Assembly (NCBI GenBank): GCA_902573115.1 | Contig: CACGIM010000004.1 | Span: forward strand, 1 to 52,659 | Source of the DNA: an uncultured Candidatus Poseidoniales archaeon | GTDB taxonomy: Archaea > Thermoplasmatota > Poseidoniia > Poseidoniales > Thalassarchaeaceae | Direction: 5' to 3' | Length of the DNA stretch: 52,659 nucleotides | In this document: positions 37,862 to 52,658 of the stretch, piece by piece | Layout: every line of letters begins with the position of its first letter | Position numbering within the stretch: position 1 is the stretch's first letter | The notes under the pieces: model-generated | The model's input: the letters and a program-made list of their open reading frames with translations, nothing else | Told to the model about the DNA's origin: nothing | Database searches by the model: none | Program-made: the position numbers and the translations under genes

Positions 37862-38125
37862 TCAGACTCGGTCTATTCTTAGCTTCTTCACGTTGGCCTT
37901 GTTTATCATATCGGGAAGCCAGTCCGGCGCGTTTGGTCCTTTTGGAACCTTACTCTTCGATCCTGAGAACACATGAACTCTATTTGTTCCCCTCTCCCTT
38001 AGGTGAATGTCTGTGACACCCCTGGATGCTGCCTTCAGGGCTGCTCCCCTGGGCTGCTTGCTGTGGAACACTTGAGCAGTGTCCTTGCCGTTCTGCATCA
38101 ACACGAAATATTTCTTGTCTGCCAT
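37862..38125 (-). CDS. MC1-family chromatin protein
   Basis: An 87-residue basic protein matching archaeal non-histone chromosomal protein MC1: an N-terminal YFVL strand, KQPRGAALKAASRG, I-H-L-R-E-R-G-T-N-R-V-H-V-F and APDWLPDMINKANVKK correspond in order to the family. MC1 is a monomer that binds and sharply bends DNA. The start has a very strong ribosome site, GGAGGA at 38134-38139, eight bases before the ATG, and a TATA-like TTTAATAC near 38163-38170, as expected of an abundant protein. Confidence 0.9.
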   Translation of the reverse strand: MADKKYFVLMQNGKDTAQVFHSKQPRGAALKAASRGVTDIHLRERGTNRVHVFSGSKSKVPKGPNAPDWLPDMINKANVKKLRIDRV

Positions 38126-48972: not shown

Positions 48973-51240
48973 ATGTTCAAGCTACATTCAGAATACGACA
49001 CGGCAGGCGATCAAAAGCAGGCTATTGAGCAGTTGGTAAGTCAAATAGACGCTGGTCAGGAAAGATGCATTCTCCTAGGTGTTACTGGTTCCGGTAAGAC
49101 CTTCGCTATGGCAAAGGTGATTGAGAGTCTACAGTTACCAACTCTAATTCTCTCGCATAATAAGACTCTAGCGAGGCAAATATGGCAGGAGATGTCAGGC
49201 CTTTTTCCAGAGAACTCAGTTGAGTACTTCGTCAGTTACTACGATTACTACCAACCGGAGGCATACATACCTGGCAGGGATTTGTACATAGACAAGGAGC
49301 TTCAACTTAACGAAAGGATAGAGCAGGAGCGTTTCTCGACAGTTGCTTCTTTGGTTTCTAAGCCTGATGTAATCACAATAGGGACAGTCTCCACAATTTA
49401 CGGTTTAAATCCCCCCGAGGTATTCCAACAAAACCATCTAAGGTTGCACGTGGGTCAAAAATCTGATCCTCAGGAAGTGATAAGAGACCTGGTTGGGCTC
49501 CAGTATAGAAGAACAGCCGGAGAAATAGTAAGGGGAGATGTGAGACTCAGGGGAGAGGTACTCGACGTCTGGATGCCAAGTCGCGATGATCCAATCAGGA
49601 TTAAATTCGGATGGGAGGGGGTTGAGAGGATACAAGTTTGTGAAGCCGTGTCTTGGGAGCCTCTGGATGAGTTTGAGGAAGCATGGATTCACCCGAGAGA
49701 ATTCTACATGACTGGTGAGGAAAATTTCAATCAAGCTTTAGATGATATCGAAAAAGAGCTAGATAAAAGGGTTGATTGGTTTGAGTCAAAAGACAAAGCA
49801 ATAGAGGCGCACAGGCTAGAGCAACGTACCAGATTCGACCTGGAGATGCTCAAGGAGATTGGTTCATGCAAGGGGGTTGAAAACTACTCCATGCATTTCG
49901 ACAGAAGAGTCAGGGGCGAGAGGTCTTACTGTTTGCTAGATTTCTTCTCCAGTAATGCTGATCAGTTTCACGGAGGTCCTGATCAATATCTCGTGATTAT
50001 GGATGAGTCCCATGTAACACTCCCCCAGGTAGGCGGTATGCATGGAGGGGACTTTTCAAGGAAGAAGAATCTCGTCGATTTTGGATTTAGGTTACCTTCC
50101 GCGTATGACAATCGTCCACTAAGGGTTGATGAGTTTCAGAAGCTAGTCCCCCAGATGATCTATGTTAGCGCGACGCCCGGAGAGAGAGAGCTTCGCCATT
50201 TGGCAGAGGTAACAGGTCAAGAGGTCCCAGAAGAGCTCCTGCACATTGATGGTGGTGGCGGTGCGAATAAATCAGACAGAAAGAAGGTGGGTACAAACAA
50301 CAGTATGGAGAATATGCTCGAAAGAATTGAAGGGATCTCAAAGATGGAAATTCGACCAACTGGGCTACTGGACCCTAGGATAGAGGTTAGGTCAACAGAA
50401 GGACAAGTTCAGGACTTATTGAGCGAGATCAATGAAAGGGTAGAGAGAAAAGAAAGAGTCTTGGTAACTGTAATGACGATTAAGTTTGCAGAAGAAGTTT
50501 CAGACTACTTGGAAAGAATGGGAGTCAAGGCTCACTATCTTCACAGTGAGATTGATACTCTTGAGAGGACTGAGATAATTAAGGCACTTAGACTTGGGAT
50601 TATCGATGTGATAGTTGGAATAAATCTACTCAGAGAGGGTCTGGATATCCCCGAAGTATCCCTAGTTGCAATCTTTGATGCTGATAAACAGGGATTCCTT
50701 AGGAACGAGAGGTCGCTACTGCAGACAATTGGGAGAGCATCAAGAAACTCAAATGGATCTGTTATCCTGTATGGAGATTCGGTTTCACCGGCAATGGAAT
50801 CAGCAATAAGCCAGACCGTCAGGAGGAGAAGCCTTCAGAATAAGTACAACGAAGAGTACGGCATATCTCCCAAGACTATAGAAAAGCCCTTGCCAGTGAT
50901 GGGTTCGGAAATCGAAGATCTGCTTTCCGGAGTTGCTGGAACAGGAACTGGTGGAGGTAGGAGGATGGTTGCCAAGGCACCCGGAAAGAGAGGCCTCGAG
51001 GGTATGGCTGAGAAATTCAGATTGGGAGCTGGGGTATGGAACACTTCTGATTCAGTTCTGGAAAACGTCAGTCAGCCACAATGGGTTGATGAAGATGAGA
51101 TAGACAATGTAGACGGGGATATTAGCAATCTGATCTCGCGACTAGAGAGAGAGATGCACCAGGCTGCAGATAGACTTGACTTTGAGAGAGCTGCTAATCT
51201 AAGGGACAGGATCTTCAAACTTCAGAATGCGACCAATTGA
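48973..51240 (+). CDS. uvrB: UvrB excinuclease subunit with an insertion
   Basis: A 755-residue UvrB, which verifies DNA damage in nucleotide excision repair with UvrA and UvrC (not in the window). Walker A GVTGSGKT (36-43), beta-hairpin YYDYYQPEAYIP, DESHVTLPQ, SATPGERE, RPTGLLDP, the INLLREGLDIPE and QTIGRASRN helicase motifs and the C-terminal UVR motif (FERAANLRDRI). About 58 residues separate SATP from RPTGLLDP where E. coli UvrB has about 17; the extra part includes a Gly-rich Lys/Asn linker. UvrABC in archaea is usually regarded as acquired from bacteria. Confidence 0.94.
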   Translation: MFKLHSEYDTAGDQKQAIEQLVSQIDAGQERCILLGVTGSGKTFAMAKVIESLQLPTLILSHNKTLARQIWQEMSGLFPENSVEYFVSYYDYYQPEAYIPGRDLYIDKELQLNERIEQERFSTVASLVSKPDVITIGTVSTIYGLNPPEVFQQNHLRLHVGQKSDPQEVIRDLVGLQYRRTAGEIVRGDVRLRGEVLDVWMPSRDDPIRIKFGWEGVERIQVCEAVSWEPLDEFEEAWIHPREFYMTGEENFNQALDDIEKELDKRVDWFESKDKAIEAHRLEQRTRFDLEMLKEIGSCKGVENYSMHFDRRVRGERSYCLLDFFSSNADQFHGGPDQYLVIMDESHVTLPQVGGMHGGDFSRKKNLVDFGFRLPSAYDNRPLRVDEFQKLVPQMIYVSATPGERELRHLAEVTGQEVPEELLHIDGGGGANKSDRKKVGTNNSMENMLERIEGISKMEIRPTGLLDPRIEVRSTEGQVQDLLSEINERVERKERVLVTVMTIKFAEEVSDYLERMGVKAHYLHSEIDTLERTEIIKALRLGIIDVIVGINLLREGLDIPEVSLVAIFDADKQGFLRNERSLLQTIGRASRNSNGSVILYGDSVSPAMESAISQTVRRRSLQNKYNEEYGISPKTIEKPLPVMGSEIEDLLSGVAGTGTGGGRRMVAKAPGKRGLEGMAEKFRLGAGVWNTSDSVLENVSQPQWVDEDEIDNVDGDISNLISRLEREMHQAADRLDFERAANLRDRIFKLQNATN

Positions 51241-51246
51241 AGGCAT

Positions 51247-52260
51247 GTGCACAGTGCGGAGTACATGGTTAGATACTCGCGAGATGATTTTGATGTCCCG
51301 GTAGAGGATTATGAATTCTCCAAGGTTTCCGATGTCAGATCTCTGATTGATCAGATGGGTAAGGCGGGCGGTTTCACAGCATCCAAGCTAGCCCAATCAA
51401 GGGATATTCTTAGGCATGCAATTTCTAAGTCGAAACAAAACAGGATTCTGAATTGGCTATCGTTCCCTGCTTGCCTGTGCGCAACAGGGACTCGTGGATT
51501 CTTCGTTGAGGCGATCAGAAGGAAGGCCTACAACGTTGTGATTACTACTTGCGGAACTCTGGATCACGATATTGCTCGAACTTACCGGGAATACTTCCAC
51601 GGTGATTTCACTCTCGATGACGTAGCTCTAGGTGAAGAAGGGTTGAATCGACTTGGCAATGTCGTGGTCCCAAACGAATGTTATGGAGAAATCCTTGAGC
51701 GTGTCGTTCTTCCATGGTTAGAGGAAATAGAGGAAGAGCGTAAGAAGAATGACCAAGAGAATCCTTGGTTAGGGTTTGGTTCCGTGGAATTGTGCTGGTC
51801 CCTTGGTGACAGGATAGAAGATGAAACGTCAATACTTCACTGGGTGGCTAAGCATAGGATACCCATGGTAATACCCGGGCTAACAGACGGATCGATAGGC
51901 TCACAGTTATTCATGCATAGACAAAGGAGCCCTAGATTCATGGTGGATGTTTTAGCCGACGAACAGGTTCTTTCCGACCTAATATGGGATGCCGAAGAAA
52001 GTCATGGGTTGATGGTTGGGGGTGGGATCTCTAAACATCATGTAATCTGGTGGAACCAGTTCAGGGAAGAGGCTGGGATGGATTCAGCGGTATCGATCAC
52101 GACGGCGCCTGAATTTGACGGGTCATTGTCGGGAGCTAGGTTGAGAGAAGCGGTTTCTTGGGGAAAGATTAGGCCTAATGCACCACAAATGGTTCTGGAG
52201 GGAGAAGCAAGTCTGATTCTGCCTATCCTTGGAAGTGATCTATTTGCCCAAACTAGTTGA
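51247..52260 (+). CDS. dys: Deoxyhypusine synthase
   Basis: A 337-residue enzyme that moves aminobutyl from spermidine to a lysine of aIF5A using NAD. Clear family segments: GGFTASKLAQS, NWLSFPACLCATGTRG, VITTCGTLDHDIART, NVVVPNECYG and SGARLREAVSWGKI with the active-site lysine. GTG 51247 is used; ATG 51265, with GGAG close upstream, would drop six residues and also fit. It starts six bases after uvrB and may be co-transcribed with it. Confidence 0.92.
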   Translation: MHSAEYMVRYSRDDFDVPVEDYEFSKVSDVRSLIDQMGKAGGFTASKLAQSRDILRHAISKSKQNRILNWLSFPACLCATGTRGFFVEAIRRKAYNVVITTCGTLDHDIARTYREYFHGDFTLDDVALGEEGLNRLGNVVVPNECYGEILERVVLPWLEEIEEERKKNDQENPWLGFGSVELCWSLGDRIEDETSILHWVAKHRIPMVIPGLTDGSIGSQLFMHRQRSPRFMVDVLADEQVLSDLIWDAEESHGLMVGGGISKHHVIWWNQFREEAGMDSAVSITTAPEFDGSLSGARLREAVSWGKIRPNAPQMVLEGEASLILPILGSDLFAQTS

Positions 52261-52303
52261 GTCAAACAAGAATCCCTAATAGTTTCAATGATCTCCGGGA
52301 TTT

Positions 52304-52480
52304 ATGGGAGTTAGGGGTACTATTCAAGAAATGATCAATGAGCTAGTAGATGCAATTCCAGATGCTGAAAAGTTTGACTCCGGTAACAAAGCCGCAGGAA
52401 CTCGAATTAGAAAGCTAATGCAATCCTGTAAAGTCAGGGCCCAGGAGCTTAGGAAACAAATTCTCAATAAGAATCGATGA
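52304..52480 (+). CDS. Small Hc1-like (histone H1-like) basic protein
   Basis: A 58-residue protein. The core FDSGNKAAGTRIRKLMQ (residues 24-40), followed by a helix with Lys/Arg, resembles the Hc1/HctA-like family of small bacterial histone H1-type proteins, with their G-N-K-A-A-G-T-R-x-R-K-x-M-Q core. These are thought to bind DNA. It begins 43 bases after the deoxyhypusine synthase stop and ends four bases before the stop of a convergent gene. Function here is inferred from the motif alone. Confidence 0.68.
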   Translation: MGVRGTIQEMINELVDAIPDAEKFDSGNKAAGTRIRKLMQSCKVRAQELRKQILNKNR

Positions 52481-52484
52481 TGGT

Positions 52485-52658
52485 CTACTCCAAGCTAGCG
52501 ATGACCTCCATCAAAGAAGTTCGCAATGGCACTAAAGGATGCCAGCCCTCCCCCCCAGAGTCGATAAGAGCACGGTGGAGACTCTGAAAATCAGGTCCAG
52601 AAGTACTTCCAGAATCAATCCCCCTGACTGGACTGGGTATGTTAGAAAGTGACTCTTT
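52485..52658 (-). CDS. C-terminal end of an unidentified protein, 5' cut by window edge
   Basis: On the minus strand the frame is open from the right edge to a TAG at 52485-52487, giving 57 residues that end HPLVPLRTSLMEVIASLE. The composition looks like a real protein and the stop sits four bases from the convergent small-protein gene, the usual spacing here. Family not recognisable from this fragment. Confidence 0.5.
   Translation of the reverse strand, partial: KESLSNIPSPVRGIDSGSTSGPDFQSLHRALIDSGGEGWHPLVPLRTSLMEVIASLE

Follow-up and report, generated by a model that had tools for sequence, protein, structure and literature searches.

A short Hc1-family protein of Poseidoniales and their presumed viruses as a candidate second nucleoid protein beside MC1

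In the surface ocean, Marine Group II archaea are counted with the most abundant microbes (PMC10160649), and little is known of how their DNA is organized beyond the presence of MC1. We asked whether a 58-residue frame near the end of a 52,659-nucleotide stretch of DNA from an uncultured member of the Poseidoniales (the window) encodes a second small nucleoid protein, and where such a protein could have come from. An earlier, sequence-only reading had named the product an Hc1-like, histone H1-type protein beside deoxyhypusine synthase (DHS), counted it with MC1 as one of two unrelated candidate nucleoid proteins in 52 kb, and taken its occurrence in an archaeon to imply transfer from bacteria. 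The features discussed here are collected in Table 1.

Table 1. Features of the window that bear on the Hc1 gene
Feature	Coordinates	Strand	Basis or remark
MC1 nucleoid protein	37865..38119	-	PF05854, 82.2 bits
ORF taken as UvrB when gene order was compared	48973..51240	+	presumably UvrB; named from its sequence
Deoxyhypusine synthase (DHS), upstream neighbor	51247..52260	+	PF01916, E = 2.8e-86
TATA-like element, approximate Hc1 promoter	52270..52282	+	upstream alignment; TAATAG at 52277-52282, preceded by an A-rich stretch
Hc1-family (PF07432) protein, 58 aa	52304..52480, stop included	+	profile match, conservation, selection, model
End of a convergent open frame that leaves the window	52485..52658	-	candidate counterpart of the relatives' convergent gene downstream of Hc1, by position

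Identity and probable promoter of the gene

The frame has an ATG start and a TGA stop, contains the motif GNKAAGTRIRK, and begins 43 nt past the stop codon of an upstream gene whose profile match confirms it as DHS. A search against the Pfam family Hc1 (PF07432) gave a significant match (E = 1.7e-15, 57 bits; curated cut-off, 23.5 bits), with residues 6-56 aligned to positions 3-54 of the 57-position profile. The whole-protein score, above the cut-off, and the nearly full coverage of the profile both place the protein in the family, as do six core residues, D20, A31, T33, R34, R36, and R50, which bacterial and viral members share and which are identical in 100/100 aligned rows (104 rows, less four very divergent Poseidoniales rows removed beforehand). 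With MC1 at 82.2 bits and Hc1 at 57 bits, the two unrelated candidates proposed for this 52-kb stretch are both present.

The histone H1 part of the label fared less well. Chlamydial Hc1 (HctA) carries a lysine-rich C-terminal tail that is credited with its DNA binding, and eukaryotic linker histone H1 has a winged-helix globular domain. The window protein, at 58 residues, is tailless: it stops 8 residues beyond R50, and 53 relatives are similarly short (58-63 residues). Against the 121-position HctA model (NF051889) it scored 19.1 bits, far below the cut-off of 100, in a weak match (E = 0.0016) confined to the first 37 model positions. Its predicted structure has three helices and no strands (mean pLDDT, 95.7), which is not a winged helix. 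Since the protein is not HctA, has no tail, and is modeled as a helical hairpin, we regard "histone H1" as a misnomer, while membership in the Hc1 family stands. A sequence search of the PDB returned no matches, and one of PHROGs gave a single weak match (E = 0.026). With 58 residues, a pI of 10.0, and a net charge of +5, the protein resembles nucleoid-associated proteins in being small and basic; basicity is not uniform among the 53 relatives, however, where net charge ranges from -1 to +5 (median, +2) and pI from 5.7 to 10.0.

Codon changes indicate a real gene that is evolving under purifying selection. It is single copy in its own genome, which is 63% complete. Compared with the nearest relative (L002), it shows 7 synonymous and 4 nonsynonymous codon changes among 58 codons (dN, 0.038; dS, 0.251), a dN/dS ratio of ∼0.15, and the mean difference at codon positions 1, 2, and 3 across 20 members of the genus is 0.17, 0.10, and 0.46. 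The frame is also conserved: of 389 genomes in the phylum, 97 have a match.

Archaeal promoters, with their BRE/TATA element, and transcription that starts at the A of the ATG are expected to leave characteristic columns in an alignment of upstream regions. In 37 dereplicated regions of the order (from 65, two further rows with an uncertain start having been removed), column -27 is A or T in 37/37, columns -34 and -33 are A-rich, and column -1 is C or T in 36/37. These columns match that expectation, so the mRNA is probably leaderless. In the window, the TATA-like element is shifted downstream by about one base relative to the consensus.

Distribution, gene order, and other chromatin proteins

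Hc1 was found in 48 of 60 relatives at E ≤ 0.01. In the profile search of the phylum, all 97 carriers scored above the Pfam cut-off and all 97 belong to the window's own order, Poseidoniales, which comprises two families with genomes of mostly ∼1.2 to 1.6 Mb and ∼1.7 to 2.1 Mb. Most Poseidoniales genomes hold a single copy. The window's family accounts for 54 carriers in the phylum sample, with at least two genomes lacking the gene; three incomplete genomes of the window's genus lack it as well. The other family contributes 43 carriers, from four genera (23/27, 18/18, 1/1, and 1/2 genomes). Its remaining six genera gave no Hc1 in 23/23 genomes, two profile scans being combined by genus, so in these genera the protein is dispensable. 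Overlooked divergent copies were also sought beside a CaiB-like gene, a neighbor of Hc1 in some members of this family; 2 of 15 loci were positive, both in known carriers. This check covers one context, and a third known carrier (G037) has its Hc1 beyond the stretch that was fetched.

DHS lies upstream of Hc1 in 43 of 55 distinct Poseidoniales loci, and a UvrB-type gene precedes DHS in 42 of these 43. The uvrB-DHS-Hc1 order is confined to one family; ten loci of the other family have different Hc1 neighbors. Contamination is ruled out, since many genomes conserve the uvrB-DHS context.

MC1 was identified in 131 of 145 Poseidoniales genomes, and Marine Group II is, according to Hocher et al. 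in the part of their study that bears on it, the sole group of Diaforarchaea with MC1 (PMC7613761). MC1 and Hc1 lie ∼14 kb apart in the window, as they do in nine more genomes of the genus with both genes on one contig. No histone was found in 11/11 genomes tested; Alba was found in 0/6 tested of the window's family and in 5/5 of the other. In this small sample (6 plus 5 genomes), Hc1 is nearly always present where Alba was not found. MC1, Alba, histones, and HTa/HU are, like Hc1, small basic proteins, and Hc1 would share with them a role on the chromosome, but their sequences are unrelated to it.

Outside the phylum, Hc1 occurs in 154 of 296 Bacteroidota genomes at E ≤ 0.01 and in one control genome (Bacteroides ihuae) of the 14; coverage of Chlamydiota, and of archaea outside the window's phylum, was that of the control genomes. 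A scan with a Bernardetia query returned one Rickettsiales metagenome-assembled genome, judged by title, and otherwise Bacteroidota names; as the nearest 80 loci were kept, it is uninformative on other phyla. The short "histone H1" proteins of Bacteroidota (Bernardetia WP_338790807.1 and Aureibacter WP_309940808.1) fall in the same length class and share the invariant core D20, A31, T33, R34, R36, and R50. At position 24 the Poseidoniales consensus has H rather than F or Y, although the window copy keeps F24. Most of the Poseidoniales rows are also one residue shorter ahead of GN, and both the TATA-like promoter and the host are archaeal. In Hymenobacter (L131, L151, L158, and L161) the Hc1 core is followed by a KAAPAKK-type C-terminal tail that archaeal copies are without, showing that the tail was gained or lost within the Bacteroidota.

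Viral relatives and probable exchange with hosts

Viral sequences were scanned with the window protein (19 loci), with an alignment of Poseidoniales proteins (the best 80 of 239 relatives were kept), and with an alignment of the viral Poseidoniales-type proteins (71 loci). Nine viral contigs (L202-L208, L312, and L314) encode a Poseidoniales-type Hc1 with 57 to 73% identity to the queries over 59 to 60 residues, and TATA-like sequences lie about 24 to 30 nt upstream of the viral starts. The presence of Poseidoniales-type Hc1 on these nine contigs is new here. Two of them were annotated in part, ten proteins each by Pfam. On the 128.8-kb contig, which has tail-type PHROGs matches, an RNA polymerase A''-like stretch was found together with a thermosome-like chaperonin. 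The chaperonin of the 108.3-kb contig scored 527.8 bits (thermosome-alpha cut-off, 450) and is 46 to 48% identical to the best Poseidoniales homologue in 4/4 genomes. On the contig of L202, presumably from an archaeal tailed virus, the A''-like stretch belongs to an 839-residue protein (L296:9544-12060, plus strand) and scored 98 bits with TIGR02389, which is below the cut-off; a thermosome-like chaperonin is encoded there too. We dropped the name magrovirus for the Poseidoniales-type contigs, as DNA polymerase B, taken as the marker, was found in 0/5 viral records.

Other viral Hc1 genes recur in T4-like replication modules, directly before gp32 in one locus (L062) and between gp32 and UvsX in another (L252), where the surrounding profiles are gp32, D12 methylase, RecA/UvsX, exonuclease, and DnaB. 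Within 4 kb of the 82 distinct non-Poseidoniales viral Hc1 genes, a gp32-like gene was found at 30, a UvsX-like gene at 33, and both at 28; the UvsX-like neighbor was missing at 49, many of the stretches ending early. Neither neighbor was found at the nine Poseidoniales-type viral loci. Phage members of the family are already on record: Synechococcus phage S-SRM01 carries a "histone H1" annotation, and moraphages are stated to encode PF07432 in the portion of PMC12619734 concerned with it. Those phages have bacterial hosts; the Hc1 of the nine contigs here is of the Poseidoniales type, and thermosome-like genes accompany it on the two that were annotated. In the literature searched (titles and the beginnings of abstracts, for the top matches of longer lists), no paper named Hc1 in Poseidoniales or their viruses, and the term PF07432 led only to the moraphage paper. 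Hc1 is missing from the table of nucleoid-associated proteins in PMC7613761, and the word is absent from its main text; the main text of the magrovirus paper PMC10160649 gave no match for histone, Hc1, nucleoid, or thermosome.

In an unrooted tree built from a short alignment (104 rows, 61 columns), a branch with support of 98/99 separated Poseidoniales cells and their viral type from T4-like phages and from Bacteroidota with their viruses; a 90-row tree gave the same split (99/98). On the Poseidoniales side, some viral rows branch among the cellular rows and others outside them (five of eight outside in the larger tree), and Hc1 has likely been exchanged between these hosts and their viruses. 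Approximately unbiased (AU) tests rejected neither the cells as one clade (P = 0.612) nor the viruses as one clade (P = 0.516), and we therefore leave the direction undecided; the five outside viral rows as one clade gave P = 0.073. 

The simplest reading of the distribution is an outside origin of the Poseidoniales gene, because Hc1 is found in 154/296 Bacteroidota and 1/14 controls and, within the phylum, only in this order. Viruses carry the nearest relatives outside cells, archaeal-type ones included, so that "from bacteria" and "from viruses" cannot be separated. Of the bacterial transfer first proposed, the bacterial affinity holds up; the import was not a recent or isolated one. A recent transfer from Bacteroidota to this genome alone is ruled out by the order-wide, syntenic occurrence of the gene and by the position of the window row inside its genus. 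A separate import of the window copy, which looks more bacterial (F24, NKAAGTRIRK), was considered as well and is ruled out by its grouping with the genus (99/96) and by the preserved synteny. The window Hc1 has a median identity to the genus of 63% (DHS, 82%), and other members have 72 to 89% (DHS, 80 to 88%); this copy and that of a sister species show faster divergence than the copies in the rest of the genus. MC1 and HTa have likewise been read as horizontal acquisitions in Diaforarchaea, in the pertinent part of PMC7613761. Viruses and hosts would appear to trade a chromosome protein, and a second candidate whose type is bacterial or viral makes two questions testable: whether archaea build their chromatin from parts gained horizontally, and whether hosts receive chromatin proteins from viruses.

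The nine viral contigs and the five of eight viral rows that branch outside the cellular ones could also be taken to mean that the gene is mainly virus-derived and kept for a virus-related purpose, for instance as a nucleoid mimic or decoy, with a domesticated copy in the host. We consider this improbable; the AU tests allow cells as well as viruses to be one clade, and the conserved copy, the synteny, and the gene's own promoter favor a housekeeping role. A broader and rather unlikely conjecture makes Hc1 at heart a viral DNA replication protein, of T4-like phages, jumbo phages, and Poseidoniales viruses. Poseidoniales would then owe an architectural protein of their chromosome to their own viruses, exchange would have recurred since, and together with MC1 it would be a main chromatin component in a family in which neither histone nor Alba was found.

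Predicted structure and possible role

The AlphaFold model, built on 50 sequences, is a helical hairpin with helices at residues 3-16, 18-25, and 29-57. Foldseek identified no PDB match at E ≤ 0.001. A fold search of BFVD also gave nothing at this threshold; its three top matches had TM-scores of 0.88 to 0.93, and one bears the name "Histone H1." Residues K23, N28, A30, K37, Q40, K43, A46, and Q47 are conserved in 96 to 99 of 100 aligned rows. On the last helix, R36, Q40, K43, Q47, R50, and Q54 share one face, ∼95° from the hydrophobic face, and 71 of 10,000 shuffles gave equally strong clustering. We take this predicted face as a contact surface for DNA or a partner.

Our preferred reading, to which we assign a probability of roughly 0.55, is that the tailless Hc1-family protein serves Poseidoniales as a second small nucleoid-associated protein beside MC1, an architectural protein that would bind or bridge DNA. 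The last helix would present a polar and basic stripe (R36, Q40, K43, Q47, R50, and usually Q54), joined near the turn by T33, R34, and K37, that touches a partner or the DNA backbone; as a dimer or oligomer the protein could then bridge or stiffen DNA alongside MC1. A general role on DNA, in cells and viruses alike, is suggested by the embedding of Hc1 in phage replication and recombination modules. A bacterium or virus may have supplied the gene to the order's ancestor or to early members, with exchange with Poseidoniales viruses afterward.

The missing tail is the chief doubt about DNA binding. We also count against the preferred reading the small net charge, the HctA score far below its cut-off, the lack of a PDB fold match, the 49/82 viral genes without a UvsX-like neighbor, and the absence from six genera. 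The same missing tail, the low net charge of many members, and the restriction of tails to some bacteria, such as Hymenobacter, would suit a protein-protein adaptor. Such a helical hairpin would dock on the machinery of replication, recombination, or transcription without packaging DNA itself; its Hc1 core would serve for oligomerization, and DNA binding would fall to the tail that chlamydial and Hymenobacter forms have. The gp32 and UvsX neighbors in phages fit a machinery partner too. We think such an adaptor possible but unlikely, as R, K, and Q on one face make up the best-conserved part of the surface, a pattern usual for nucleic acid contact, though an acidic partner would also fit.

Binding to RNA or ribosomes in place of the chromosome seems very improbable. 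It could be read into the weak Foldseek matches to ribosomal chains (E > 1) and the RNA binding that chlamydial Hc1 reportedly shows as well; the viral context is DNA replication and not translation. The 58-residue tailless core that databases call "histone H1" is the evolutionarily conserved part and hence the part to assay.

Two kinds of copy depart from the common sequence. That of the window has L at position 54 and F at position 24, where Q54 and H24 are otherwise common. Very divergent Hc1 proteins, on a long tree branch, occur in two genera of the window's family (L376, L377, L379, and L380); in these proteins GTDAASRRLRG or GTDAAGRRLRK replaces GNSAAGTRVRK.
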